Of a stretch of DNA of 64,000 nt, positions 718 through 64,000 are shown piece by piece. This DNA comes from Selenomonas sp. TAMA-11512 (GTDB lineage Bacteria; Bacillota; Negativicutes; Selenomonadales; Selenomonadaceae), in the NCBI RefSeq assembly GCF_037076525.1, contig NZ_AP029018.1, positions 310,001 to 374,000 of the forward strand, written 5' to 3'. The notes under the pieces were generated by a model, which saw only the letters and a list, made by a program, of their open reading frames with translations, had not been told where the DNA came from and did not search any database. Each line of letters begins with the position of its first letter. Position 1 is the first letter of the stretch. The position numbers and the translations under genes were made by a program.

Positions 718-1605
718 ATGTGGGAAAATGTCAGCGGCATTAAAAAGAATGAATATGGTTTTTTTCAACTTGACCCTATCCCTAAAGAGGAAGAATTGGA
801 AAAACATTATAGGGAAAAATATTATCAAGAAACCAGATCCAATACATACGAACAGGAATATGATGCGGAAGAGTTGGAATATATTCGTGGAAATCTGAAA
901 GAAACAGAGTATCTCCTAGAGCGTTTTGTACATGGGGGGGCAAAGACTTTTCTTGATATAGGTTGCGGTGAGGGATGGGCACTCGCCTATTTTCATGAGC
1001 ATGGATGGCTCGTGGAAGGCTGTGACTTTTCCTGTTATGGAATTCAAAAGCATAATAAGAGTATGCAGAAGTTCTTTGAGCAGGGAGACATTGAGTCATC
1101 TTGCGATAACCGTATTGCAGCGGGCAAGACGTATACGGTGGTTCATATGAACAATGTTCTTGAACATGTTATTGACCCGAAAACTGTTTTGCAAAAATGC
1201 GCGCAGCTTTTAGAGGAGGCTGGGATACTCTATATCGATGTGCCGAATGACTTCAATCCGCTGCAGGGATATCTTTATGAAGGTGGACTCATCAAAAAGG
1301 CAAAATGGATTGCTGAGATGGAGCACATTTCGTATTTTAATAAAGACGGTTTGGTGAATTTGGCAAGAACATGCGGTTTAGAGCCTAAGATTATTTTGGG
1401 AACAGAAATCATAGAGTTTTTTGGATTGAACCCGGATACAAATTATTATGACCATCCGGAAGTTGGGCGCAATTGTCACGTAGCAAGAAGACATTGGGAA
1501 AAGCTTCTACGAAACATTTCTTTGGATAAAAAGATTGCGCTTTCCAAAGCCTTGGGTGATATGGGGCTGGGTCGCGATTTAATTGCCGTATTTGGGAAAA
1601 GGTAA
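718..1605 (+). CDS. class I SAM-dependent methyltransferase
   Basis: 295 residues. A glycine-rich SAM-binding motif (FLDIGCGEGWAL) lies near residue 80, followed by an acidic residue two strands on and a post-motif segment NNVLEHVIDP, as in Methyltransf_23-type enzymes that modify sugars or lipids. The first 60 residues (start of ORF to KETEYLLERF) resemble the N-terminal extension of sugar methyltransferases. The start has a good ribosome site (AGGAGG, 8 bases upstream). The gene sits 24 bases after pseG and 5 bases before the SDR gene, so it is probably co-transcribed. Inference: it methylates a nonulosonic acid or a nearby sugar. The substrate cannot be read from the sequence. Confidence 0.8.
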   Translation: MWENVSGIKKNEYGFFQLDPIPKEEELEKHYREKYYQETRSNTYEQEYDAEELEYIRGNLKETEYLLERFVHGGAKTFLDIGCGEGWALAYFHEHGWLVEGCDFSCYGIQKHNKSMQKFFEQGDIESSCDNRIAAGKTYTVVHMNNVLEHVIDPKTVLQKCAQLLEEAGILYIDVPNDFNPLQGYLYEGGLIKKAKWIAEMEHISYFNKDGLVNLARTCGLEPKIILGTEIIEFFGLNPDTNYYDHPEVGRNCHVARRHWEKLLRNISLDKKIALSKALGDMGLGRDLIAVFGKR

Positions 1606-1610
1606 ATGTA

Positions 1611-2288
1611 ATGAAAGATATTATTTTGACAGGAATTTCACGGGGACTGGGAAGACATTTATTCCTATCGCTGAACCGTCAAGAGGACATTCGTTTATTT
1701 TGCGTTGGAAGAAAGTTTTCTGATGAAAAAGAACATGGGGTGCAGTCTCTTATAGCATGGGATTTATCAGCGCCGGATACTATGCCGTCTGTGGATCGCC
1801 TGTTGTCGGCTGAAGCGGAATCGCTGATCTTTATCAATAATGCTGGCACAGTTGAGCCCATTGGAGAAATAGGCATGCTTTCTAATCAGCGGATCCAAGA
1901 GGCTGCGCAAATCAACTTTGTTTCGCCAATGCTCTTCTGCAATCAGCTTGTTGAGATTTGCCGGAGGCATCAGAAGAAGCTCAAGATTATCAATATATCC
2001 AGTGGGGCGGCAAATCATCCGATTGCAGGATGGGGTGCATACTGCTCAACCAAAGCGGCATTTAAGATGTTTCTTGATGTCTTGGCGGAACAAGGAAAAG
2101 TCGGCGGAGACATTGAAGTCATCCATGTGGATCCCGGTGTTATGGATACCGGGATGCAGGAACAGATCCGTTCAGCAGATGCGAAATCCTTTCCTCGTCT
2201 TGCAGAGTTTCAGTCGTATAAGGCGGCTGGAAAACTGCGCGATCCCGATGAAGTCGCGCAGGAGATTATCCGAAAGTATATTTTATGA
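1611..2288 (+). CDS. short-chain dehydrogenase/reductase
   Basis: 225 residues with a full classical SDR layout: an N-terminal cofactor motif TGISRGLGR (residues 7-15), the NNAG motif (about 76-79), a catalytic serine in NISSG (about 129) and the YCSTK active-site pair (Tyr and Lys four apart, about residue 143). The family uses NAD(P)H for carbonyl/alcohol exchange. The stop codon overlaps the next start by four bases (ATGA), which indicates translational coupling with the phosphoesterase. Its place between pseG and pseI suggests that it acts on a sugar precursor or side chain; this is inference. An ordinary metabolic SDR cannot be excluded. Confidence 0.85.
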   Translation: MKDIILTGISRGLGRHLFLSLNRQEDIRLFCVGRKFSDEKEHGVQSLIAWDLSAPDTMPSVDRLLSAEAESLIFINNAGTVEPIGEIGMLSNQRIQEAAQINFVSPMLFCNQLVEICRRHQKKLKIINISSGAANHPIAGWGAYCSTKAAFKMFLDVLAEQGKVGGDIEVIHVDPGVMDTGMQEQIRSADAKSFPRLAEFQSYKAAGKLRDPDEVAQEIIRKYIL

Positions 2289-27965: not shown

Positions 27966-28106
27966 ATGAAGCACATCAAGACGATCAACAAGCCGAATCT
28001 CCAGCAGACGGCGATGACGGGCGGCTGCGGCGAGTGCCAGGCCTCGTGCCAGTCGGCCTGCAAGACGAGCTGTACGGTCGGCAATCAGGTATGTGAGAAG
28101 AAGTAA
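27966..28106 (+). CDS. scfA: SCIFF ranthipeptide precursor
   Basis: 46 residues with six cysteines at positions 21, 24, 28, 32, 36 and 43, in the CxxCxxxCxxxCxxxC spacing of the 'six cysteines in forty-five residues' family. The start has an excellent ribosome site (AAGGAGGGG). A long radical SAM maturase gene follows at 28283, the invariant partner, which installs thioether cross-links. The ATG at 27962 is in another frame. The family is common in Clostridia; its biological role is not settled. A short repeat and a terminator stand between the two genes. Confidence 0.95.
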   Translation: MKHIKTINKPNLQQTAMTGGCGECQASCQSACKTSCTVGNQVCEKK

Positions 28107-28111
28107 TTCAT

Positions 28112-28155
28112 TTAAGGAAGTACTGACAGATTTCATTTTATCAGAGACTCCTTAA
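28112..28155. repeat. short derivative of the TAAGGAA repeat
   Basis: 44 bases with inverted ends TTAAGGA..TCCTTAA and the internal TTCATTTTATCAG of the right end of the full element (31518, 52325). Looks like a deletion product. It lies just after the scfA stop. Confidence 0.7.
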
Positions 28156-28157
28156 AG

Positions 28158-28187
28158 AAATCTCTCCGAAGGGGGAGATTTTCTTTT
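28158..28187 (+). terminator. terminator after scfA
   Basis: Stem AAATCTCTCC/GGGGAGATTT with one wobble pair, GAAG loop, then TCTTTTTAT. It would leave the maturase at a lower level than the precursor. Confidence 0.85.
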
Positions 28188-28282
28188 TATTTACGGTTTT
28201 AGGTTTCAAAGAATGCATGTGAGAGCCGGACGGGCAGCCGGAGAAAGACGGTTTGCCGCAGACCGGGAATGAGGAGCGGGGC

Positions 28283-29659
28283 GTGACAGGTAAGATTCAT
28301 AAATTTCACCGAGGCGATACATACATCGTTCTCGACATCAACAGCGGGGCGGTGCACATCGTCGACAAGACGGTATACCGCATCATGGATATATTCGACG
28401 GCACGAACGACGCCGAGGTATTGGAAAAGCTGAGCGGCGAGTATGAAGCCGGGGAGATCGGGGAAATCCTCGCCGAGCTGCACGAGCTGATCGAGGCAAA
28501 GGAGCTCTTTGCGCCCGATCTCGATGTTCCTCCGACATTCCGTCAGGAAGGGCTTGTCAAGTCGCTCTGCCTCATGATCGCGCAGGACTGCAACCTTCGA
28601 TGTAAATATTGCTTCGGCGACGGCGGCAGTTACGGCGGAAAGCGCGCCGTCATGTCGCCGGAGGTCGGCAGGCGCGCGGTCGACTTTCTCATCGAGAAGA
28701 GCGGGCCGCGAAAGCACATGGAGATCGATTTCTTCGGCGGCGAGCCGCTCATGAACATGAAGACGGTCAAAGCGGTCACGGAGTACGTGCGTCAACGGGA
28801 AAAAGAGACGGGCAAGAAGTGCAAGCTCACGCTGACGACGAACGGTATGCTCCTGCACGATGACCATATTCAATGGCTCAATGACAATGACTTCTCCCTC
28901 GTGCTGTCGCTGGACGGCCGCAAGGAGGTCAATGACGTGATGCGCCCCGATGCCGGCGGGCACGGGACGTACGACCGCATCGTGAAGAACTTCAGGAAGT
29001 GCATCGACTCGCGCGCGGGCGGCGACTATGACTATCGCGGCATCTACACCTACCTGCGCGGCACCTACACGAAGCACAATCTCGACTTCACGAAGGACGT
29101 CCTCGCCATGCATGACGAGGGATTCAACATCCTGTCCATGGAGCCGGTCGTCCTGAAGGACAGCCCCATCGGAATCGAGGCGGAGGATCTTCCGCAGGTA
29201 TTCGCCGAGTACGACCGACTCGTCGACGCGTATATGGAGCGCCGCCGCGCCGGAAAGGGATTCTTCTTCTTCCACTTCAACATGGATCTCTCCAACGGCC
29301 CCTGCGTGGCAAAGCGGCTCGCGGGCTGCGGTGCGGGGCATGAGTACTTCGCCGTCGCGGAGGACGGCACGCTCTATCCGTGCCATCAGTTTGTCGGCCG
29401 CGAGCAGTATCGTCTCGGCAATATCTACGACGGCGTGACGAATACGGAACTGCCGCCGCATTTTCGTGCGGCGCACGTCATGAATAAGCCGACGTGCCGG
29501 ACGTGCTGGGCGCGGTTTTTCTGCTCGGGCGGCTGCCACGCGAACGCGGATCTCTTCCACGGAGATATCTATCAGCCGTATGAGATTGGCTGCGAGATTC
29601 AGAGAAAGCGGCTGGAGAGCGCCATCCTCGTGCAGTCGCTGATCGCGATGGAAGAATGA
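28283..29659 (+). CDS. scfB: SCIFF maturase, radical SAM/SPASM enzyme
   Basis: 458 residues from the GTG at 28283 (GAGGAG upstream; a TTG at 28253 is also open). The first 80 residues form a peptide-binding RRE-like domain (HRGDTYIVLDINSGAVHIVDK). The radical SAM cysteines are C103, C107 and C110 (CNLRCKYCFGD), and GGEPLMN follows. The SPASM part has CGAGHEYFAVAEDGTLYPC, CRTCWARFFCSGGCH and GCEIQRKR, enough cysteines for two extra iron-sulfur clusters. It cross-links ScfA cysteines to alpha carbons. Next to scfA, separated by a terminator. Confidence 0.95.
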   Translation: MTGKIHKFHRGDTYIVLDINSGAVHIVDKTVYRIMDIFDGTNDAEVLEKLSGEYEAGEIGEILAELHELIEAKELFAPDLDVPPTFRQEGLVKSLCLMIAQDCNLRCKYCFGDGGSYGGKRAVMSPEVGRRAVDFLIEKSGPRKHMEIDFFGGEPLMNMKTVKAVTEYVRQREKETGKKCKLTLTTNGMLLHDDHIQWLNDNDFSLVLSLDGRKEVNDVMRPDAGGHGTYDRIVKNFRKCIDSRAGGDYDYRGIYTYLRGTYTKHNLDFTKDVLAMHDEGFNILSMEPVVLKDSPIGIEAEDLPQVFAEYDRLVDAYMERRRAGKGFFFFHFNMDLSNGPCVAKRLAGCGAGHEYFAVAEDGTLYPCHQFVGREQYRLGNIYDGVTNTELPPHFRAAHVMNKPTCRTCWARFFCSGGCHANADLFHGDIYQPYEIGCEIQRKRLESAILVQSLIAMEE

Positions 29660-29712: not shown

Positions 29713-30900
29713 TTATGCTTTTTTATGCTTGGACAGGAAATTCTCAATCCGGGCGAGCGCCTCGGAAATCTTATCGAGTGAGGTCGCGTAGGAGCAGCGG
29801 ACGTGGCCCGCGCCGCACGCGCCGAACGCGCTCCCCGGCACGAGGGCGACGTGCTCGGAGCGAAGCAGCTCCTCGGCAAATTCCTCGTCGGTGTAGCCGG
29901 ACGGTCTGATGTCCGGGAAGATGTAGAACGCGCCCTTCGGCTCGAAGCACGGGAGCCCCATCTTCGTAAAGCCGTCGTATATGAGGCGGCGGCGGCGGTC
30001 GTACTCGGCGACCATCTTCTTCATGTACTTCTCGCCGCGTCTCAGCGCCTCGATGGCCGCGATCTGCGCCGTGATCGGAGCGCAGAGCATCGTGTACTGA
30101 TGGATTTTCGTCATGGCGGCGATGACGGACTCGTTCGCCATCGCGTAGCCGATGCGCCAGCCCGTCATGGCGTACGCCTTGGAGAAGCCGTTCAGGAGGA
30201 TGGTGCGCTCCTGCATGTTCGGGAGAGAGGAGAACGCGACGTGTTTCTCGCCGCCGTACGTGAGGTCGCCGTAGATTTCGTCCGAGATGACAAGCAGATC
30301 GTGCTTCTCGGCGAACTTCGCTATCGCGAGGAGATCGCTTTCTTCCATGATGGCGCCCGTCGGATTGTTCGGGTAGCCGATGAGGAGGACGCGCGTCTTC
30401 TCGGTCACATATTGTTCAAGCTCAGCCGGCGTGATGCGAAACTCGTTTTCGAGCTTTGTGGGGACGGAGACGGGGACACCGCCGGCGAGAATCGTGCAGG
30501 CCTGATACGAGACGTAGCAGGGTTCCGGAATCAGTACTTCGTCGCCCGGTGAGAGAACGGCACGCATGGCGATGTCAAGCGCTTCGCTGACGCCGACGGT
30601 CACGAGGATATCCGTCGCGGGGTCGTAGGAAATACCGTACTCCACTTCGTAATGGAGGGCGATTTCCTCACGCAGCTCCAGCATGCCGCGGTTTGACGTG
30701 TAGGAGGTATAGCCGCGCTCAAGCCCGTAGACGCAGCTCTCACGAATCGTCCAAGGCGTGACGAAGTCCGGCTCGCCGACGCCGAGCGAGATGACGTCCT
30801 TCATCTGCGCGGCGATGTCGAAAAACTTGCGGATGCCGGACGGCGCAATCGACTGCACGGCAGGAGAGAGACGACTGTTCCAGTCGCGCGTTTCCTTCAT
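29713..30900 (-). CDS. PLP-dependent aminotransferase, AlaT-like
   Basis: 395 residues, fold type I class I/II. VGVSEALDIAMRAVLSPGDEV (about 110), YPNNPTGA (about 176), SDEIYGDLTY (about 207) and the PLP lysine in NGFSKAYAMTGWRIGYAM (about 236) are present. The gene order with an Lrp-type regulator directly upstream (four-base overlap) is the same as yugG-yugH (alaR-alaT) in Bacillus subtilis, where the enzyme makes alanine. Aspartate or aromatic aminotransferase activity is possible, so no symbol is given. Transcribed toward scfB and ends just before the shared terminator. Confidence 0.88.
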   Translation of the reverse strand: MKETRDWNSRLSPAVQSIAPSGIRKFFDIAAQMKDVISLGVGEPDFVTPWTIRESCVYGLERGYTSYTSNRGMLELREEIALHYEVEYGISYDPATDILVTVGVSEALDIAMRAVLSPGDEVLIPEPCYVSYQACTILAGGVPVSVPTKLENEFRITPAELEQYVTEKTRVLLIGYPNNPTGAIMEESDLLAIAKFAEKHDLLVISDEIYGDLTYGGEKHVAFSSLPNMQERTILLNGFSKAYAMTGWRIGYAMANESVIAAMTKIHQYTMLCAPITAQIAAIEALRRGEKYMKKMVAEYDRRRRLIYDGFTKMGLPCFEPKGAFYIFPDIRPSGYTDEEFAEELLRSEHVALVPGSAFGACGAGHVRCSYATSLDKISEALARIENFLSKHKKA

Positions 30901-31376
30901 GGTGTCACCACCAGTCTGTGGTCGTGCTCCTCGTCGTTCATGATGACGCCGTCCTTCTTGTACGGCTTCAGGATGAAGTAGGTGCGCGTCTGCGTGACGC
31001 CCTCAATCGTCGAGAGGCGCGTCGCGACGAAGTTCGCGATCTCCTGCAGCGACTTGCCCTCGATGATTGCCACGAGGTCGAAGCTGCCGCTCATGAGGTA
31101 GACAGTACGCACTTCGTCAAAGCGATAGATGCGCTCGGCAATCGCGTCAAAGCCGACCTCGCGCTGTGGCGTGAGGTTGATCTCGATGATGGCCGTCACC
31201 GAATTGTCACCGGTCTTTTCCCAGTTGATCAGAGTGTTGTAGGAAAGGATGACCTTGTCCTTTTCGAGGCGCTTGATCTCCTGCTCGACTTCGTACTCGC
31301 TGCGGTTCAGCATGGCGGCAATCTCTCCGACGGGGCGACGTGCGTCGTGCTTCAAAAGCTCCAATATCTCTTTCAT
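30897..31376 (-). CDS. Lrp/AsnC-family regulator, AlaR-like
   Basis: 159 residues. N-terminal winged helix (ILELLKHDARRPVGEIAAMLNRSEYEVEQEIKRLEKDKVI) and a C-terminal RAM ligand domain (residues 70-145). It overlaps the aminotransferase start by four bases, so both are made from one message, and it probably controls this operon in response to an amino acid. The ribosome site AAAGGAG lies before the start. Confidence 0.9.
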   Translation of the reverse strand: MKEILELLKHDARRPVGEIAAMLNRSEYEVEQEIKRLEKDKVILSYNTLINWEKTGDNSVTAIIEINLTPQREVGFDAIAERIYRFDEVRTVYLMSGSFDLVAIIEGKSLQEIANFVATRLSTIEGVTQTRTYFILKPYKKDGVIMNDEEHDHRLVVTP

Positions 31377-31517: not shown

Positions 31518-31683
31518 TAAGGAAACACTGATAAATGCAACACAGCCATCTTGGCGCATCTTTTCCGCTCTCTCTGCGTCGGCAAATCCTCCACAGAGCA
31601 CCACTCTGCGTCCGGCTTGCCTCCTTGATAGAACGAAAAATCTACACCAATCTGACCGACTTCATTTTATCAGCGCTTCCTTA
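31518..31683. mobile_element. MITE-like element, full copy 1
   Basis: 166 bases with inverted ends TAAGGAAACACTGATAAA and (on the other strand) TAAGGAAGCGCTGATAAA. No coding potential. The interior resembles the copy at 52325 (shared CAAATCCTC, AGCACCACT, GCGG/CGGCTTG, CATTTTATCAGCG). Followed by a second partial end at 31681-31710. Passive transposition by an unlinked transposase is likely but no target duplication was made out. Confidence 0.75.
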
Positions 31684-31706
31684 GGAAACACTTTATCAGC
31701 GTTTTC

Positions 31707-32134
31707 TTAAGCGGCTATATCGACGGAAGAGCCCTTGGAAGCGGATGCCGCAGCCATCGCCTTGACACTCTGCTGGTAGGCTGCCTGTGCGTTCTGGACG
31801 AGGGAACTGGTCGCCTTCGTGCCGGCCGCCTCGACGTTCTTGGCCACCTTTTGTACCATGCCGGTGCCCTGGATGGTGCGGGCAAAGGTATCCTCGAGAC
31901 GCTTGTTGGAGCGCTGAATGGCACGCGCCCCGTCATTTTGCACGCGATCGTTATTCTGCTGGAAAGGGCTGGTGCCTGTCTTTGTGCCATTGCCGAAAGA
32001 CGGTTGACCGAGGTGGGTCTTGTTCTCAATGGCATGCGCCGCCGTGACGTTTTGTCCGTTCGTCTGGATGGCGCGGTTCATGGTCTGGAATGAGCTCTGC
32101 CCCACAGTCGAAGCGGAAATGCTGGAAATACTCA
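31707..32134 (-). CDS. unrecognised small Gln/Asn/Ala-rich protein
   Basis: 142 residues from the ATG at 32134, where GGAGGAGAG precedes the codon; a longer frame to 32159 adds residues without a site. Begins SISSISASTVGQSSFQTMN; rich in Gln, Asn, Ala, Thr and Ser, no cysteine or tryptophan in the portion read, and no signal peptide. A regular helical pattern (ARTIQ..VQKVAKNVEAAGTKATSSLVQ) covers the C-terminal half. May be linked to motility, since the FliD-like protein at 37538 has a similar composition; this is only a guess. It has a strong vegetative promoter. Confidence 0.7.
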
Positions 32135-32264
32135 TTTTTTCTCTCCTCCCTGAAAGCAATGCTGCCCTCCATTCCTTGGTGACAGAGCGTGCAGCAGCAT
32201 TGGGCCGGGAGGTAATAAAAGGATAAGCGTCCTATAAAAATAATACTCCCAGTCCTTCATCCCA

Positions 32265-35806: not shown

Positions 35807-35823
35807 TAGGGAAGCACTGATAC
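35806..35823. repeat. solitary end of the TAAGGAA element
   Basis: TTAGGGAAGCACTGATAC resembles one end of the 166-base element; the partner end is not seen. Lies in the gap between tpiA and gpmI. Confidence 0.5.
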
Positions 35824-35907
35824 ATTCATCCCTGCCGCTTGCACTCTCTGCTTCCCGGAGGATTCGTCGGGAATTGTAAGCTTATATGTAAAGAAAGAAG
35901 GAAATAT

Positions 35908-39805: not shown

Positions 39806-39850
39806 ATAGGAAACGCTGATAAAATGAAGTCTGTATCAGTGCATCCCTAA
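39806..39850. repeat. short derivative of the TAAGGAA repeat
   Basis: TAGGAAACGCTGATAAAATGAAG facing TATCAGTGCATCCCTA in inverted order: a deletion form of the 166-base element. Between the two minus-strand genes. Confidence 0.7.
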
Positions 39851-50912: not shown

Positions 50913-52313
<1,401 letters not shown>

Positions 52314-52324
52314 AAAAAGCAATA

Positions 52325-52490
52325 TAAGGAATCACTGATAAACTCAGCCACCCATCTTCACACATCTGCGCTGTCCTCTCGTCGTCGACAAATCCTCGAC
52401 GTAGCACCACTACGCCTGCGGCTTGTCTCCTAGATAGATACAGTGCATCTGTGCAAATCCGGGCGACTTCATTTTATCAGCGATTCCTTA
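52325..52490. mobile_element. MITE-like element, full copy 2
   Basis: 166 bases, same length as the copy at 31518. Ends TAAGGAATCACTGATAAA and, inverted, TAAGGAATCGCTGATAAA. Inserted between the gdhA stop and its terminator. Confidence 0.8.
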
Positions 52491-55568: not shown

Positions 55569-58500
55569 ATGATGCTCGCGCGGCGTGAAAAACTCACATA
55601 CCAGATCGGCTTTTCCCTGTTCAGCGGCATGGTGTCTTTTTTGCCGTCCGCGGGAGCACTGCCGGTTATTGATGAGAATTTTTCTCATGTAGGTGTCGAT
55701 CCGAATAATCCGGCACAGATGAATAAAGATGCCGCGGGTACTACAATGAACATCAACGGTACGAAGCAGAACAACGTTATCGGATGGAGGGACTTCTCCG
55801 TCGGCAAGGGAGAGACTGTCCAATTCGACGGCGGCAGCCATACGAAAAACTATCTGAACATGGTGACAGGGAATGTGTCGTCCGCCATCTACGGTACGAT
55901 CCAGGGCGGAAAGGATGTCTATATCATCAATCCGCATGGTGTTCTCTTCGGCAACGGTGCGTCTGTCAATGTAGGCAATCTCTATGCCTCCACGCAGAAT
56001 GTCAATCCGGCGACAGTGATCAATGCCGCAAACGCGGCGAACACGGCAGGAACGGACGTCGCGGCATCCGCTGTTCTCGGCACATACACGAATCCCACAA
56101 AGTCCGGCGTGTCAACACTTACAGCGGATGACGGCAAATCCTATACGAATACTTCCGTCTCTCATCTCGCCGATGTCGTCTCCCTTATCGATGACAGCGG
56201 CTCTGTTGTGGCGGATAAGGTTGTCGTCGTCGGCGGGCACGTCCGATTTATGAACAGCGGAAAAGTAACGGCGACGAGCGGCGTGGAGGCGTACTACGAC
56301 CAGCAGGATACCGCCATCGACGGCTACGTCCATGTGGGGAACGCGACAGGAGCGAATGCCGCATGGGCGACGAACAGCGGCAAGAGCGTGGACTACTATA
56401 AGCTCGTCGGTACGGCGGCGGAGCTGCAGGCGATGAACGCCAATAAATCGGGCAACTATATGCTTCGCAAGAACGTCGACATGACGGGCGAGACGTGGAC
56501 GCCTGTCGGTACAGGGACAGGCGCGAACGCCTTTACGGGTAAATTCGACGGCATGATGCACGAGGTGCAGAACCTGACGATCAACAATGCGTCTGCTGTC
56601 AATCAGGGACTCTTCGGCACGACGAGCGGCGCGCGCATTGACAATGTAGGAGTAGTGAACCCGAACTTCCGTATGTCGAACGGCGGAGCCGTTGTCGGCA
56701 ATGCAACGAACAATACAACACTCCGTGGTGTATACGCGGAAGGCGGGACAATCCGAGGCGGAGACTTTACCGGCGGATTGGCAGGTATTCTAAGTAACTC
56801 CAAGATTGATACGGCATATGTGACATCTACGATCCATGGTGATACCGATATTGTTGGTGGATTGGTAGGATCTATCCGAAGAGCAAGTATCAAGAATATC
56901 TACTTTGCCGGGACATTGGCAGGGCAGGCGCAATATGCCGTGTATGGGGATGCGACACCTCGAACAAACAGCAGTCTCGAATACGTGTATCACAAGATCT
57001 ATACACAATTGGGCTCTCCGACATTGACTCCTGCCCCTAATACTGTACTTGGCGGATCGCAGATAACGGATCACATCTCTACCTATTCCGGATGGGACAT
57101 CTCCAATACCGGCGGCACAAATTCTATCTGGCGCATTTACGAGGGACGGACGGCGCCTCTCCTGACGGCGTTTATGAAGGGGACGATCGAGGCGGATGTC
57201 TCGACGAAGGAGTATGAACGCGCGAAAGACGCACATGGAAACTATATCGGCGCGCATGCGTCGACAGACCCCACGTTTGCCGACTACACGCATGAGGCAA
57301 AAGGGCCTACGGCGCTGAAAGGCAAGGACATCGACCAGATCTACGACGCGAATGTCATCAAGTACGTCAAAAATGACGGGTCTGCCATTACGTCCGCATC
57401 CGATGTCGACTTCCTCCACAAGCTGGAGTCGTCGGATTATGACAATATCACCGTCGACAACAGCGGCATCCGCAACGCAGCGGCGATGAAGTCCTATATC
57501 TACTCCAATCAGAAGGGCTACGACATCGTCGGAGGCAATGTCACGATCAAAAAGCGCGACATCTCGTCGTCGTCCAATCCGATCAAGGTTGCGTCAAAGG
57601 TCTATGACGGAGAGACGACGGTCTCTAAAGAAGCTCTGCAGGCGGCGCTCGATCACAGCACGACATCTTTCTCGGGAATCCTTGCCGATGATCAGGCAAT
57701 CGGTCTCAAGCTCGCAGCTACAGACACGCTTGCCACGTATACGAACGTGGGCAACAATGCGGACGGCACAACCTATACGGGAACAAATGCCCGTGATGCC
57801 GGATATAATAAGAAGATCAATACGACGGGCGCCATTACTGTTCAAGGTGCGACATCGACCGAGGCAAATAACTATAATCTCAATGCCGCCGATATCGTCG
57901 TCACGGGTGATATCACGCAGCGCGAGATCTATGTCGGCCTGCATAAGACGGCGGGCATCGACAAGACGTATGATGCGACCTCCGACGTGCGCGAGCTGAC
58001 GAGCAAGACGGCGGGCGGTACGAACTGGACCGGCGGTACGGAGGGCGTCGCGACGGATGAGAACATCTACGTCGATGACTCGGATGAAGCGCACAAGATT
58101 CTTGCCGTCGACAGCGATACGTCGGTCGACTACGCAAACTCAACGGCAAAGTACTACGACGGTGCGGCAGTGACGGCGCACGAAGTCGTCAACGCCACCG
58201 ACGGGTCGGACGACTACACGGTCAAATACGACAACATCACACTGAAGGGCTCCGGCAAGGCGAACTATAAGCTTGTCGACAAAAACGATCACTCCAAGGT
58301 CATCTATGCCGCCGCTATGCAGGGGGCTGCTTCGAGTGCGGCGGACGCCGTCGATCGCTCGGGCACGCTCAACGGCACGGGTACGATCCATCGCCGTGAA
58401 CTCGACAAAGAGACGTTCCAGGTGCTCACCGGCTCGGGAACCGTTTCGGAGGCGACGAAAGTCTATGACGGCACGTCGGTCTACGACTCAGGGAGCGGTG

Positions 58501-61500
58501 CATTCAAGATGATGACGAGCGTCATCGTCGACGACCAAGGCACAGATAAAGATGCCAACCTCGCCGCGAACGATAAGGGTATACTCAAGAGTGAGATTGA
58601 TAAGATCGCCTTTACGGTGACTACGGGCAAGGGCACCTTCAAGCAGGGAGACCGCGCGACGGATGCCGTCGATGCGGCCGGATCTGCCCGTGCGAAGTAC
58701 GTTGCTTACAATCTCACGGCAACGAACGAGGACACGACGAAGAACTGGCTCGGCAACTATAAGCTCGTCGACAAGACGACGTCGCCAGAGACGGTGACAA
58801 ACCTCGCGCACAATACGACGACGGATATCATCGCCAAGGGCACAATCACAAAGCGAGCGCTCTACGTCGACCTCGGAAAGAAGACGGGCATCGACAAGGT
58901 CTACGACGCCGGGACAGGCGTTGCCAATACATATACCGTTTGGAATGACACGAATACGACGGCTGCCGCTAATGGCGGAGCGGTCTATGCAGGCGACTCG
59001 CTGAACAATGCGGGAAATCGCCTTGTTTCTGACGGCACGAGCATCAAGGTCATCGCCTCCTACGACAACAAGGACGTCATCCGAGGCATCAACGGCGATA
59101 ATAACTACACGAACGCCGCCGGCTACGAGACGGTGAAAGACAATACGCACAGCGTCAACTACACAGTCGCCGTCGACGGTGCGAAGAGCTACAACTACGT
59201 CCTCGTTGATCAGAACAGCATACCTGCCGATCTCACGGACAAGCTCAAGAGCACGGATGCAGTGACGCCGGCGACGACCGCGCTCGCGGGCAAAGGCAAG
59301 ATCACACCGGCGGAGCTGAGCGTCTCCTTCGGACATGTGACGAAGGAGTATGACAAGACGGTGGATCTCAAGGCAAGCGATCGGAACCGTCAGCCGATAC
59401 TCTCCGGATTGGTGGGAGGCGAGACGATTACCGTAGCCACAGTCGGTCAGACGGACGGCTACAGCGCCGCTTATTCGGATGCGAATGTTGCGGACAACAA
59501 GACGGTCAACTATACGAATCTCAATCTCGGCGATACGGCGAAGAACTATAAAATCAAGGCGGTCACCGGGGAGACTGTCGCCTACTCAAGTGACCGGACA
59601 CTCGGCACGTTTACGCCGGCCACGTATGACGTGACGGGCAAGGGCGATATCAAGAAGGCGACTATCACCTACATCTCTGCGGTTACCGGTGCCGCGTCAA
59701 AGATCTACGACGGCGGCAAGCAGGTCGAATACAACGGCAGCGCGGCGCTTGCCGATGTGAAGAACTACATCACGAGCGTTACCGTGAGAAACGGCGACGG
59801 CGTACAGTTCAACGCGGCAGACGATGTCGAGCTTTCCAAGGCCGAGTATTCGGACAAGAACGCCGGCACGGGCAAGAACATCGACTATACCTTTACCGTC
59901 AAGAATACGACATCCTTCAATAATTCTGCGACAGCGACGTACAGGGCAAACAACGGCACAATTGAAAAGCGCGAGGTCGAGCTGGACAGCATTGTCAACA
60001 GTGATTTGACGCGCGCCTATATGGGCTCGAATGAAGTTGGCGCATGGGATACTTCGGGAACGACGCCGACTGCGCTGACCGGGAATTCGCTCGTGACCTT
60101 CAAGAATGCGGCGCACGTCACGGGAGGCGTGGCTGATCAGGGAGACGATACGGGGCTCATCGCCGGCGATGCCGTGACGAATGCCACGACGGCGAAATAC
60201 GACACGGGCAATGTCAAGCGCGATTCGAGCCGAAATGTCAGGACAGGCGCGCACGATGTCACGTACAATCTTGCCTTGAGCGGCGCGGACGCGGGCAACT
60301 ACCGCATCGTCAACAATTATTCGACGACGTCGACGCCTGCGACGGATCGCACGACGGCGGCAGGACATGGGACGATCACGCCCATCACGGTCAATGCGAC
60401 CGTCGGCAATATCACGAAAGTCTACAATGCCAAGGTGGCTGCGGAGAACATCAGCTCCGCGGTCTCTGTCGGTGTGCTCTTCGGCGACGCGGCGACGATC
60501 ACGGGCGAGTATCAGGGGAGTGCGACGGAACGCGCAAAGGATGTCGGCACGAATAAGGATGTCAATTATACGGTCAAGCTCGGGACATCGACAGTCGGCT
60601 CGGATACGTACAATATCAATGACAATTACGATATTCAACAGAACGGCACGACGGTCAGCTATGACTCAAACGGCAACGCACTGCTGAAGGGCAAGGGCGA
60701 TATCACGAAGGCGACGTTGGCTGTTCAAACGTCAGAGGATGTCAAGAAGACGTATAACGGCAATGACAGCGTCACGCCCGGACAGGGAACGGTATCCGCC
60801 GTCGCCGCGGGCGGGACAAACGGTCTGCAGACAGATGATAACGGCGTAGTGGACACGGTCACATTCACGGTTGCGAATGGTGATAAGAAATACAAAGGCT
60901 TTACGAAGTCCGACGGGACCGTAAGGTCTGCTTCGGATGCCAACGCGAACGCTTCGGATCCGGATTCCACGGCGATGCTCTGGCGTGTCGCTTATGAGAA
61001 TGTGCAGGCGGCCGGTGCCGATCTCAAGAACTATACGCTTGTCGGCGCGGCGACGGAGAACAATCTGACGTCGAGCGGAACAGATACGTATAAGATTACG
61101 GGCAAAGGCCGCATCGACCGCGTGGCGCTGGCGGACAGCGCGCTCACCATGACGGTGGGGAACGCGACGAAGGTCTATGACGGCACGACGGCTGTCAAGT
61201 ACAACGAGGTCGCGGCGGATGCCCATAAGTATCTCACAAATGTCACCGTCGATCTCGGCGGCGGACATACGGAGACATTTGACAGCAGCAAATTTGCCAA
61301 TGTCGCGGCAGAATACACAACGGATAAGAACGTCGCCTCGAATACAACGGCGACGAATAACATCAGATATACCATCACGCTGGGCAATAATATCGGAAAT
61401 GACAACTATACGATCGGCACGACCGGCGTCGTCACCCGTACGGGTACGGGTAAGATCACGGCACGTGACGTCAAGGCGACTCTGAAGAACAACACCTATA

Positions 61501-64000
61501 CGAAGGTGTATGACGGCACGACTGACGTCAAGGCAGGGACTGCCGTCGTCTCGGGTGATAATCTCATCGCGCTGGAGGCGCAGAGCGGCACGCGGGGCTG
61601 GATCGACGGCACGCTTACGCGCACGGCGGCGTATGACACAAAGAATGTCAGCCGCGATGCGGGCGGCACTGTGCAGTCGGATAAGCGAATCACCTACACG
61701 AACACGTTTGACAGCGCGGATACCGCCGCGAACTATAACATCACCTATGTTGCCGCCGACGGAACGACGCCTGTCGCCTTTACGACGTCGGGACTCACTT
61801 CGACATATACGACGGGCACGGTTAACACGATCACACCGAAGACGGTTTCCGTCACGGCGAAGTCATACGCGGATTTGACGAAGACATGGGATAATACGAC
61901 CGTCGTTCGTCCGTCGAACGGCTCGGACGGCCTCCTTGCGCTGGACGGTATCGAGACCGTTGATACAGGGACGGCGGTGCTCAATCATCCGTCTGCAATC
62001 GGTGCGGATGAGAGTGCCTCGGGCAAGTATAAGGCCGCCTACGACGGTACAGACGCAGGCGATCACAATGTCACCTACAGCGGTGTAGCGCTTACGGGCG
62101 CGGATGCGGGCAACTATACGCTTGGATCCTTTGCGCAGGCCGGCGCCGGAGGAGCATCGGGCACACTGACAGCGGATGCGGCGGGACTCTACAGCTTCTC
62201 TGTCAAGGGGCACATCAAGTCATTGCCGCTCGATACGAATCGTCTCAAGATCAATCTCAAGGATATTACGAAGACGTATGACGGCACGAATACACTGAAG
62301 GACGGCGCTCTGACAGGAGCGGACGCGTGGAAGAGCTACATTCAGGACATTTATCTTGAGGTCTCGCCGACGGGCTTGCCGAGCTCGAGGGTCTACCTGA
62401 GCACGGATGACATTACACTGAACTCTGTTTCCTACACGGATGTCAATGCCGGCACGGGCAAGTCGATTGCCTATAATTTCACACTCAAGAATAATTCGAA
62501 CTACTCGGTTACGAGTTCTTCGGGTACAGGTACGAACAGCTTCTCGGGCACGATTGCGGCGAACCATAACGGAATGGCTGCCGGTGCCGCGAGCGGCATC
62601 ACGACGAAGAACATCGATATCACAAAGCGCAATGTCGATGTGACGATCGGCGATGCCGTCAAGACGTATGACGGAACGACGGCCGTCACAGGCAACAGCG
62701 GCGCATCGCCTGCGATTACGACAGCAGCAGGTCTTGTCCGCTTTGAGACGCAAAACAATACGACGAATACAGGCTGGGTCAGAACCGATACGACACCCGG
62801 CTCTATTAGTGGTGCCTATGTAGATAAGAATGCGGGCACGGGCAAGAACGCGACCTATACAATCACCTATGGCGCAAACGATCTCACGAACTACAATATC
62901 ACGTATAAGGATGCGGCAAATAATGTGCTCACCGCGACGACTGCCGGGACAACGGACAGCCTGACGACGATGAACAATACGATCAACAAGCGTGAAGTCG
63001 GTCTCAATACGAAGCGGGGCATTACGAAGGTCTACGACAGAAATACGAGTGTCACCGACGCGAACGCCGTACTCGAACTGGAGGATGCCGCGGGTACGAC
63101 GGGTGTTATAGCCGCGGATAAGAGCAATCTGACGGTCAACATCGGCAGCAAGGCGTACGACTCGAAGGATGTCAAGGGTATCGAGGGCAGCACGATTCAT
63201 TACACGAATGTCTCGCTGACCGGATCGGAAACCGGCAACTACAGGCTTATCAACGGCACGGCGGCAGGCAATTCCAACTTCAGGGATCATGGCTCCGGCA
63301 CGTACTCCATCGACGGCACGGGTACGATTACACCGAAAGACCTGACGATTACGACGGGTACAGGTGCAACGAAGGTCTACGACGGAACGACTGCCGTCGA
63401 CGGCACGACGGCAGCCGCCAATGCCGTGCTTGGCCTGTCGGGCGTCATCGCCGGCGATACGGTCCATATCAAGAATGGCTACAATCGCGTCTATGCGTCG
63501 AAGAACGTCATGGGCACCGAGGGCAGCACGATCAACTACTCGAATATCCACTTGGATACGGCCGGAGATGCGGCGAACTATCGCCTCACGGCGACGACAG
63601 CGACAGGCACGGGCACGATTACGAAGCGCAAGGTCGATGTAACGATCGGTTCTGTCACGAAGGAATATGACGGTCAGATCACGATGAACAATCCGTCATC
63701 CTATGTCTCATTTGCACGGCGTGATGATAATGCCGGCACGGGATGGATAGAGACGTCTGACGCGACCGTTACAGGTGCATACCGGTCGAAGGATGTCAGC
63801 GTGGACGGAAGCGGCAATGTACAGTCGGATAAGGCGGTCGATTGGACGTTTGCTCACACTGAACTTGCCAACTACGACGTCACCTATAAGGAGTCGTCCG
63901 GCACATCTGTCGGGACAAGCAATACGACGGCGACGACGAATAACAATACAATCACGCAGAAGGTCCTCGATGTCACCTTCGGTCGTGCGGATAAGACGTA
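55569..64000 (+). CDS. giant filamentous-haemagglutinin-type adhesin, 3' end missing
   Basis: At least 2810 residues, open to the window end; start ATG with GAAGGAA ahead. A signal-like segment (IGFSLFSGMVSFLPSAGALP) begins at about residue 13. The next 200 residues form the two-partner-secretion haemagglutination domain (NNVIGWRDFSVGKGETVQFDG..YIINPHGVLFGNGASVNVGNLYAS). A GLUG-type region (FTGKFDGMMHEVQNLTI..GGLVGSI) spans about residues 310-445. From about residue 676 come at least 18 YDG/MBG-type repeats (KVYDGTT and variants). The family is exported through a TpsB porin and gives adhesion. No cysteine-rich or transpeptidase motif was noticed. The TpsB gene is not in the window. Confidence 0.92.
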   Translation, partial: MMLARREKLTYQIGFSLFSGMVSFLPSAGALPVIDENFSHVGVDPNNPAQMNKDAAGTTMNINGTKQNNVIGWRDFSVGKGETVQFDGGSHTKNYLNMVTGNVSSAIYGTIQGGKDVYIINPHGVLFGNGASVNVGNLYASTQNVNPATVINAANAANTAGTDVAASAVLGTYTNPTKSGVSTLTADDGKSYTNTSVSHLADVVSLIDDSGSVVADKVVVVGGHVRFMNSGKVTATSGVEAYYDQQDTAIDGYVHVGNATGANAAWATNSGKSVDYYKLVGTAAELQAMNANKSGNYMLRKNVDMTGETWTPVGTGTGANAFTGKFDGMMHEVQNLTINNASAVNQGLFGTTSGARIDNVGVVNPNFRMSNGGAVVGNATNNTTLRGVYAEGGTIRGGDFTGGLAGILSNSKIDTAYVTSTIHGDTDIVGGLVGSIRRASIKNIYFAGTLAGQAQYAVYGDATPRTNSSLEYVYHKIYTQLGSPTLTPAPNTVLGGSQITDHISTYSGWDISNTGGTNSIWRIYEGRTAPLLTAFMKGTIEADVSTKEYERAKDAHGNYIGAHASTDPTFADYTHEAKGPTALKGKDIDQIYDANVIKYVKNDGSAITSASDVDFLHKLESSDYDNITVDNSGIRNAAAMKSYIYSNQKGYDIVGGNVTIKKRDISSSSNPIKVASKVYDGETTVSKEALQAALDHSTTSFSGILADDQAIGLKLAATDTLATYTNVGNNADGTTYTGTNARDAGYNKKINTTGAITVQGATSTEANNYNLNAADIVVTGDITQREIYVGLHKTAGIDKTYDATSDVRELTSKTAGGTNWTGGTEGVATDENIYVDDSDEAHKILAVDSDTSVDYANSTAKYYDGAAVTAHEVVNATDGSDDYTVKYDNITLKGSGKANYKLVDKNDHSKVIYAAAMQGAASSAADAVDRSGTLNGTGTIHRRELDKETFQVLTGSGTVSEATKVYDGTSVYDSGSGAFKMMTSVIVDDQGTDKDANLAANDKGILKSEIDKIAFTVTTGKGTFKQGDRATDAVDAAGSARAKYVAYNLTATNEDTTKNWLGNYKLVDKTTSPETVTNLAHNTTTDIIAKGTITKRALYVDLGKKTGIDKVYDAGTGVANTYTVWNDTNTTAAANGGAVYAGDSLNNAGNRLVSDGTSIKVIASYDNKDVIRGINGDNNYTNAAGYETVKDNTHSVNYTVAVDGAKSYNYVLVDQNSIPADLTDKLKSTDAVTPATTALAGKGKITPAELSVSFGHVTKEYDKTVDLKASDRNRQPILSGLVGGETITVATVGQTDGYSAAYSDANVADNKTVNYTNLNLGDTAKNYKIKAVTGETVAYSSDRTLGTFTPATYDVTGKGDIKKATITYISAVTGAASKIYDGGKQVEYNGSAALADVKNYITSVTVRNGDGVQFNAADDVELSKAEYSDKNAGTGKNIDYTFTVKNTTSFNNSATATYRANNGTIEKREVELDSIVNSDLTRAYMGSNEVGAWDTSGTTPTALTGNSLVTFKNAAHVTGGVADQGDDTGLIAGDAVTNATTAKYDTGNVKRDSSRNVRTGAHDVTYNLALSGADAGNYRIVNNYSTTSTPATDRTTAAGHGTITPITVNATVGNITKVYNAKVAAENISSAVSVGVLFGDAATITGEYQGSATERAKDVGTNKDVNYTVKLGTSTVGSDTYNINDNYDIQQNGTTVSYDSNGNALLKGKGDITKATLAVQTSEDVKKTYNGNDSVTPGQGTVSAVAAGGTNGLQTDDNGVVDTVTFTVANGDKKYKGFTKSDGTVRSASDANANASDPDSTAMLWRVAYENVQAAGADLKNYTLVGAATENNLTSSGTDTYKITGKGRIDRVALADSALTMTVGNATKVYDGTTAVKYNEVAADAHKYLTNVTVDLGGGHTETFDSSKFANVAAEYTTDKNVASNTTATNNIRYTITLGNNIGNDNYTIGTTGVVTRTGTGKITARDVKATLKNNTYTKVYDGTTDVKAGTAVVSGDNLIALEAQSGTRGWIDGTLTRTAAYDTKNVSRDAGGTVQSDKRITYTNTFDSADTAANYNITYVAADGTTPVAFTTSGLTSTYTTGTVNTITPKTVSVTAKSYADLTKTWDNTTVVRPSNGSDGLLALDGIETVDTGTAVLNHPSAIGADESASGKYKAAYDGTDAGDHNVTYSGVALTGADAGNYTLGSFAQAGAGGASGTLTADAAGLYSFSVKGHIKSLPLDTNRLKINLKDITKTYDGTNTLKDGALTGADAWKSYIQDIYLEVSPTGLPSSRVYLSTDDITLNSVSYTDVNAGTGKSIAYNFTLKNNSNYSVTSSSGTGTNSFSGTIAANHNGMAAGAASGITTKNIDITKRNVDVTIGDAVKTYDGTTAVTGNSGASPAITTAAGLVRFETQNNTTNTGWVRTDTTPGSISGAYVDKNAGTGKNATYTITYGANDLTNYNITYKDAANNVLTATTAGTTDSLTTMNNTINKREVGLNTKRGITKVYDRNTSVTDANAVLELEDAAGTTGVIAADKSNLTVNIGSKAYDSKDVKGIEGSTIHYTNVSLTGSETGNYRLINGTAAGNSNFRDHGSGTYSIDGTGTITPKDLTITTGTGATKVYDGTTAVDGTTAAANAVLGLSGVIAGDTVHIKNGYNRVYASKNVMGTEGSTINYSNIHLDTAGDAANYRLTATTATGTGTITKRKVDVTIGSVTKEYDGQITMNNPSSYVSFARRDDNAGTGWIETSDATVTGAYRSKDVSVDGSGNVQSDKAVDWTFAHTELANYDVTYKESSGTSVGTSNTTATTNNNTITQKVLDVTFGRADKT
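57590..64000 (+). repeat. YDG-type repeats of the adhesin
   Basis: About 18-19 units, each roughly 100-150 codons, marked by KVYDGTT-like motifs at (for example) 57595, 57963, 58459, 58899, 59344, 59699, 60418, 60749, 61169, 61503, 61884, 62271, 62662, 63027, 63372 and 63660. Each unit tends to end in a conserved NYxxT/GKGxI or GTGTI segment. The units differ enough that they are old. Confidence 0.9.

Follow-up and report, generated by a model that had tools for sequence, protein, structure and literature searches.

The two 166-bp repeats present in the window (the whole stretch of 64,000 nucleotides analysed here, belonging to the single 2,593,422-bp contig of a 2.59-Mb Selenomonas genome) are very probably MITEs mobilised by the IS5 family, in which a hairpin is kept on one strand for spreading and the core of the hairpin is a shared module. 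The family to which the two copies belong numbers at least 65 full-length members, inserted at unrelated sites, plus shorter and 272-bp forms. The body of the element is a long imperfect hairpin (~165 nt), tipped by a conserved core of 57 nt, and not an IS leftover; pairing in the hairpin is maintained on one strand only. Bacterial MITEs are usually viewed as passive IS leftovers held by their ends; in the Selenomonas element family, the interior is kept across lineages while the ends change.

Two full-length copies and short derivatives in the window

Copy 1 is located at positions 31518-31683 and copy 2 at 52325-52490, both read on the minus strand, which is the best-folding strand; the element proper (GGAA...TTCC) spans 31521-31680 and 52328-52487, respectively. 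The first-pass annotation, made from the sequence of the window, had described two elements of the same length with unrelated flanks, a shared interior, 18-base inverted ends with one or two mismatches and no coding potential, and our analysis agrees with it on all of these points. Both copies are 166 bp long and 75.4% identical over 167 aligned columns (E ~1e-26), their flanks share no relation, the 18-bp inverted ends carry two mismatches in copy 1 and one in copy 2, and the 166-bp element holds no long reading frame. The surroundings are also as described there. Copy 1, flanked by the 4-mers GTAA and TTAG, lies downstream of a minus-strand gene, 23 bp beyond the stop of the ORF at 31707-32159, and 141 bp ahead of the start of an Lrp/AsnC-type gene (30897-31376). 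Copy 2, for which the plus strand gives an RNA fold z of -5.9, lies between gdhA and its terminator: it begins 11 bp beyond the stop codon of this gene (50964-52313, assigned by Pfam to the glutamate dehydrogenase family) and ends just ahead of a terminator-like inverted repeat followed by T's.

While the two full-length copies had been recognised earlier, several reduced forms in the window had been overlooked. Two derivatives have lost the body and kept both ends, namely one of 42 bp at 28113-28154 on the minus strand (18.0 bits, E 0.026) and one of 44 bp at 39806-39849 on the plus strand (20.3 bits, E 0.0079). A single left end with its partner absent is seen as an end match at 35807-35831 (plus strand), and an extra right end of the element, without body, is present at 31692-31709 (minus strand), 8 bp beyond copy 1. 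The 42-bp derivative sits between the end of a short Cys-rich peptide (~28050-28104) and a radical-SAM-like protein (28253-29659), a pair (28050-29659) which we take to resemble a SCIFF-type peptide and its maturase. Elsewhere in the window, an open frame of ~2810 codons (55569-63998) reaches the window edge.

Copy number and forms across the genome

A DNA search of the genome with copy 2 gave at least 47 matches (40 of the 131 candidates scored), and a covariance model of the whole element (R1) gave at least 90 matches at E <= 0.01 (150 of the 1317 candidates scored). The end pattern, with up to two mismatches allowed, is found 101 times in forward and 111 times in reverse orientation, 212 in total, and the reversed pattern is not found at all. 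Since there are 212 end matches against 0 for the reversed pattern, together with 90 model matches, the occurrence of the repeat is far above chance. From 200 of the 212 ends, 67 end pairs were formed, of which 54 are 164-168 bp and eight are 44-76 bp long; the remaining pairs measure 229 bp (one) and 272-273 bp (four). Omitting opposite-strand duplicates and partial or short matches left the 65 full-length model matches that were used further, and the whole-genome search by which the earlier reading was to be checked thus shows at least these 65 full-length copies.

The four copies of 272-273 bp (L039-L042, at 133138-133410, 622892-623163, 1912798-1913069 and 2328365-2328636 of G000:C1) come from both subfamilies and contain a common insert of ~105 bp close to the tip of the hairpin. 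L040-L042 also have an altered opposite arm, and the fold of L040 pairs this new arm with the insert. Parts of the insert also match the flanks of L053, L052 and L025, and therefore the insert is a repeat in its own right.

Target duplications and an IS5-type partner

For measuring target duplications the element was taken as GGAA...TTCC, and four of the 65 copies in which an end was unrecognisable were dropped. Target-site duplications, proposed earlier as a check, are seen: a perfect 4-bp duplication flanks 25 of the 61 remaining copies, where 5000 shuffles averaged 6.3 and never exceeded 16, and lengths of 3, 5 and 6 bp account for 5, 1 and 0 copies. The duplication, initially put at 2 bp (TA), was set to 4 bp once lengths from 1 to 6 had been tested. 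TTAA (10), CTAG (3) and TTTA (3) are the commonest duplicated 4-mers, and YTAR accounts for 17 of the 25 perfect duplications (10 TTAA, 3 CTAG, 2 TTAG and 2 CTAA). The flanking 4-mers fit YTAR on the left in 29 and on the right in 35 of the 61 copies. These counts are to be read with the limits that only 25 of 61 duplications are perfect and that the 4-mers are AT-rich, so that some are expected by chance. IS5 has been described as leaving a YTAR duplication, in the part of PMC10359306 that deals with it.

The parent transposase had been reported as absent from the window, and we find no parent there either. The matching transposase is found in relatives. In other genera of the family (g9 and g3), IS of 1235-1263 bp with the same ends contain frames of up to 350 codons, and their transposase matches NF033581, 'IS5 family transposase', scoring 305 and 318 bits where the cut-off is 140. 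Two of five such IS have TTAA on both flanks. The Selenomonas genome itself contains remnants only: two decayed IS with the same end are located at 1829730 and 1833776, one of which holds a copy of the MITE, and a transposase query led to four sites, each of them truncated or broken, and to no intact copy. Sequence common to the IS and the MITE is limited to ~18-20 bp at the ends, and the two diverge immediately after.

Judged from these sequence features, the element is an IS5-type MITE, because its 4-bp duplications are mostly YTAR and the same ends are present on intact IS5-family IS in relatives. An IS5-family transposase appears to move the copies in trans; it would recognise the shared end GGAANCACTGATAAA of both window copies, and insertion at YTAR-like sites would give rise to the 4-bp duplication. 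Many copies adjoin the 3' end of a gene. An overlap of 1-22 bp between the element and the called gene end was seen in 21 of 58 cases, apparently because TAA or TAG from the target plus the end provides the stop codon.

A long hairpin maintained on one strand

We aligned 48 of 56 oriented sequences, comprising 22 of 28 from the Selenomonas genome itself and 26 of 28 from relatives. The alignment supports one hairpin of 64 pairs which spans the whole element, with 94.6% of 3061 cells paired and double changes at 37 of the 64 pairs (352 cells). None of 500 shuffles attained any of the five measures used, and sliding the partner by 1-3 columns lowers pairing to 38-47%. G.U wobble cells outnumber A.C cells, the mirror mismatch, by 370 to 48 in these 48 sequences and by 78 to 6 in 11 sequences from different groups, and the folding strand is more stable than its complement in all 56 sequences. 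The whole-element model scores copy 1 with 169.5 bits on the minus strand against 43.2 on the plus strand, and copy 2 with 174.2 against 48.9.

Two internal loops interrupt the hairpin as tandem G-A (AGAT opposite AGAT, or near variants). The core occupies 31571-31628 in copy 1, where it comprises internal loops and the terminal stem-loop (73.3 bits), and 52377-52434 in copy 2 (78.1 bits), in both cases on the minus strand; these scores are from the core model R2, which was built from 27 sequences of the 57-nt core. The core loop reads GA/GA or GC/AA in all 27 cores of the core alignment and in 42 of the 48 sequences of the whole-element alignment, in which four further sequences have GT/GC and are capable of pairing.

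A conserved RNA gene in the interiors had been named earlier as what would refute the transposable reading. The interior is indeed a conserved structure, but it lies within a transposable element, and it therefore supplements the MITE reading and does not refute it.

Relatives and the change of ends

The element is present in 32 of 101 genomes and 12 of 30 genera of the family. A genome of the same class (L122) has a sequence identical to that of a Megasphaera record (L324), from which the class can be deduced as Negativicutes and the family as probably Selenomonadaceae. Genus g3 has this interior too, but one group of copies there has the ends AGGGCGTGTTGATTAA, which means that the interior outlasts a change of ends. 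One locus of this genus (L109) shows a fragment of a DDE transposase between two AGGGCGTGTT(G/T)A ends. Another g3 element, ~804 bp in length (L110, G052:C8 520346-521149), has AGGGCGTGTTGATTAA at both of its ends and no frame longer than 122 codons.

In the ~257 bp behind gdhA, 11 of 12 relatives are without the element, with flanks too diverged for an exact junction. One relative (G048) has one element behind gdhA, in opposite orientation and at a different position, that is, an independent insertion.

The 57-nt core beyond the family

When a hairpin is palindromic, its covariance model gives a score to the reverse complement too (43-75 bits), and the weaker full-length hits of the whole-element model (34-71 bits) are therefore partly generic. 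The core model matches the window copies on the folding strand only and is for this reason the better witness. Among 398 genomes of the phylum, the whole-element model is found in 15 and the core model in 32, the latter in 25 of 267 genera and 17 families. The outer arms and the ends of the core-bearing elements differ between lineages.

The exact core pattern was found in 89 stretches of named species genomes, 80 of which were taken as loci; the chance expectation of 0.002, calculated for independent bases, is too low for hairpins, yet it is far from 89. According to the record titles, 24 of the 80 loci lie outside Bacillota (one carries no name beyond 'bacterium'); examples are Geobacter sp. 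AOG1, Bowmanella dokdonensis, Shewanella morhuae, Marinobacterium lutimaris and Wenzhouxiangella sp. 15190. Proteobacteria, Nitrospirae and Acidobacteria are among the phyla whose records contain the core, and the outer arms there are unrelated. The loop letters GA/GA or GC/AA are present in 69 of 85 regular-expression matches, in which the first possible right-hand part was taken, and 32 of 36 loci show higher stability for the folding strand than for its complement. One Clostridiales bin contains four copies of the core with common ends unlike those of the Selenomonas element; these also look like MITEs because their ends are shared and their flanks are unrelated, and their transposases were not found. 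The core pattern occurs at one locus in viral contigs, and one Marinobacterium core searched in plasmid and phage records gave no match.

The recurrence of the same core in elements with unrelated outer arms and in other lineages suggests a modular behaviour, in which the core has been joined to different transposon ends, and these may have been exchanged between elements. Rfam scans at the gathering threshold and at a relaxed E-value returned no family for the element, its relatives or the cores, and no description of the element or the core, including six short core sequences, was found in the open-licence literature. We regard as evenly balanced the more general proposal that the core is a previously unnamed structured nucleic-acid motif of several phyla, carried in MITEs with unrelated ends and transposases, which promotes their spread or survival as one-strand RNA or single-stranded DNA. 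If the core is a shared module, it offers a concrete target, one motif on one strand, for the question why many bacterial MITEs form long hairpins.

Some of the core loci have particular settings. In Marinobacterium (L277 and L292), three cores are arranged in tandem within ~250 bp. Among the 16 hairpin loci scanned in other genomes of the phylum, five (L117, L121, L126, L129 and L130) have an rRNA or tRNA gene no more than 250 bp away, and in L117 three cores are arranged around a tRNA-Ala/tRNA-Ile/23S spacer. A hairpin for rRNA or tRNA processing was considered and rejected, as it misfits the MITE copies of the family, where a tRNA was found within the 1.5-kb flanks of 1 of 56 scanned loci. 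In L121 a sub-threshold T-box match (1371-1692, minus strand; 55 bits against a cut-off of 93) spans the hairpin at 1501-1662, so that the element appears as if within a T-box leader.

Probable selection on the spreading element and alternative explanations

A fold that served the host at every site would be expected to persist in single copies. Changes private to single copies and variants common to several copies of the Selenomonas genome were counted separately at the paired positions. Private changes, taken from the 61 of 65 copies that fall in clusters, gave 14 G.U, 11 A.C, 25 other mismatches and 4 kept pairs, which are small counts. The consensuses of the two clusters contain, over 64 pairs, 10 and 9 G.U against 0 and 1 A.C. 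Variants common to several copies, with 72 G.U, 47 A.C, 75 others and 81 kept pairs, are intermediate, and are less one-sided than the comparison between genera. On these modest numbers, structure is kept in the copies that spread, while single inserted copies lose pairing without bias. Orientation to the adjoining genes is random: of the gene ends within 300 bp, 29 meet the element in sense to its folding strand and 21 in antisense (p 0.32, with gene calls from a simple codon-usage script), and tandem sites are divided into 14 and 18. An effect of the hairpin in stabilising or regulating neighbouring mRNAs was dropped on account of this random orientation.

Because private mutations are unbiased and orientation is random, the target of selection seems to be the spreading element, in the form of RNA or single-stranded DNA, and not a host function site by site. 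Such selection can be told apart in our data from a function at the individual insertion sites. Most likely, a single-stranded hairpin, either RNA or single-stranded DNA, is needed or favoured during the spread of the element, and its role most likely lies in this spread rather than in a service to the neighbouring host gene.

The nearest alternative is a variant of this explanation, in which single-stranded DNA, for example on the lagging strand, would be the acting form instead of RNA. DNA, too, accommodates stable G.T and tandem G.A pairs, and the choice of strand is independent of genes, both of which would suit this possibility; against it, 28 of the 65 copies are on the presumed leading strand (assuming that the contig start is the origin), which shows no replication-strand bias. 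We give this variant somewhat less than an even probability.

A functionless hairpin, in which the paired changes arise from template switching or repair between the arms at replication, appears improbable. Template switching can both create and restore hairpin pairing, according to the relevant passage of PMC8794818, but it restores Watson-Crick pairs and gives no reason for 370 G.U against 48 A.C cells. Neither the conserved tandem G-A internal loops nor the core loop, which in 27 of 27 cores takes one of the two alternatives GA/GA and GC/AA, is explained by it.

We consider it very unlikely that the interior represents an RNA gene of the host, or an RNA acting in cis for neighbouring genes, with the repeats as its functional copies. 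Such an RNA could account for a strong one-strand structure conserved across genera and for the proximity to rRNA or tRNA genes of 5 of 16 loci in other families, but not for target duplications and IS ends, for random orientation to adjoining genes, for private mutations which disrupt pairs without bias, or for the absence of the element behind gdhA in 11 of 12 relatives. Equally unlikely is an ordinary internal-deletion derivative of an IS5-type parent with a hairpin formed by chance, as the ends are common to IS and MITE but the two diverge right past the 18-20 bp end, the interior is conserved with other ends in genus g3 and the core occurs in other phyla.

Comparison with known mobile repeats

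The closest systems are the IS5-family IS (NF033581) and the MITEs derived from IS5, with which the Selenomonas element has in common the same end sequence, a YTAR-type 4-bp duplication and an IS5-family transposase in relatives. In contrast to IS5-family IS, it is without a transposase, its body is unrelated to the IS interior and it forms a long structured hairpin.

The element also resembles, by description, bcr1 of the Bacillus cereus group, a mobile repeat of ~155 bp with a structured RNA maintained by paired changes. The skipping-rope motif and others in Rfam are further long bacterial hairpins which are possibly tied to mobile elements.

ERIC or IRU of enterobacteria and Correia or NEMIS of Neisseria are likewise dispersed repeats of ~100-200 bp with TA at their ends, and their transcripts fold into a long stem-loop, according to the account of these repeats in PMC2229807; the section of PMC10969869 on Correia transcripts adds that these are cut by RNase III. 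Hosts and ends differ from ours, and the likeness is one of description. Finally, RUP of Streptococcus pneumoniae is a MITE whose proposed mover is an IS with the same ends, and it occurs inside IS genes, as outlined in the part of PMC2229807 devoted to it. Like RUP, one Selenomonas copy is present inside an IS5-type remnant; RUP, however, pairs with IS630-Spn1 and TA targets, whereas the Selenomonas element is of the IS5 type and is associated with YTAR.
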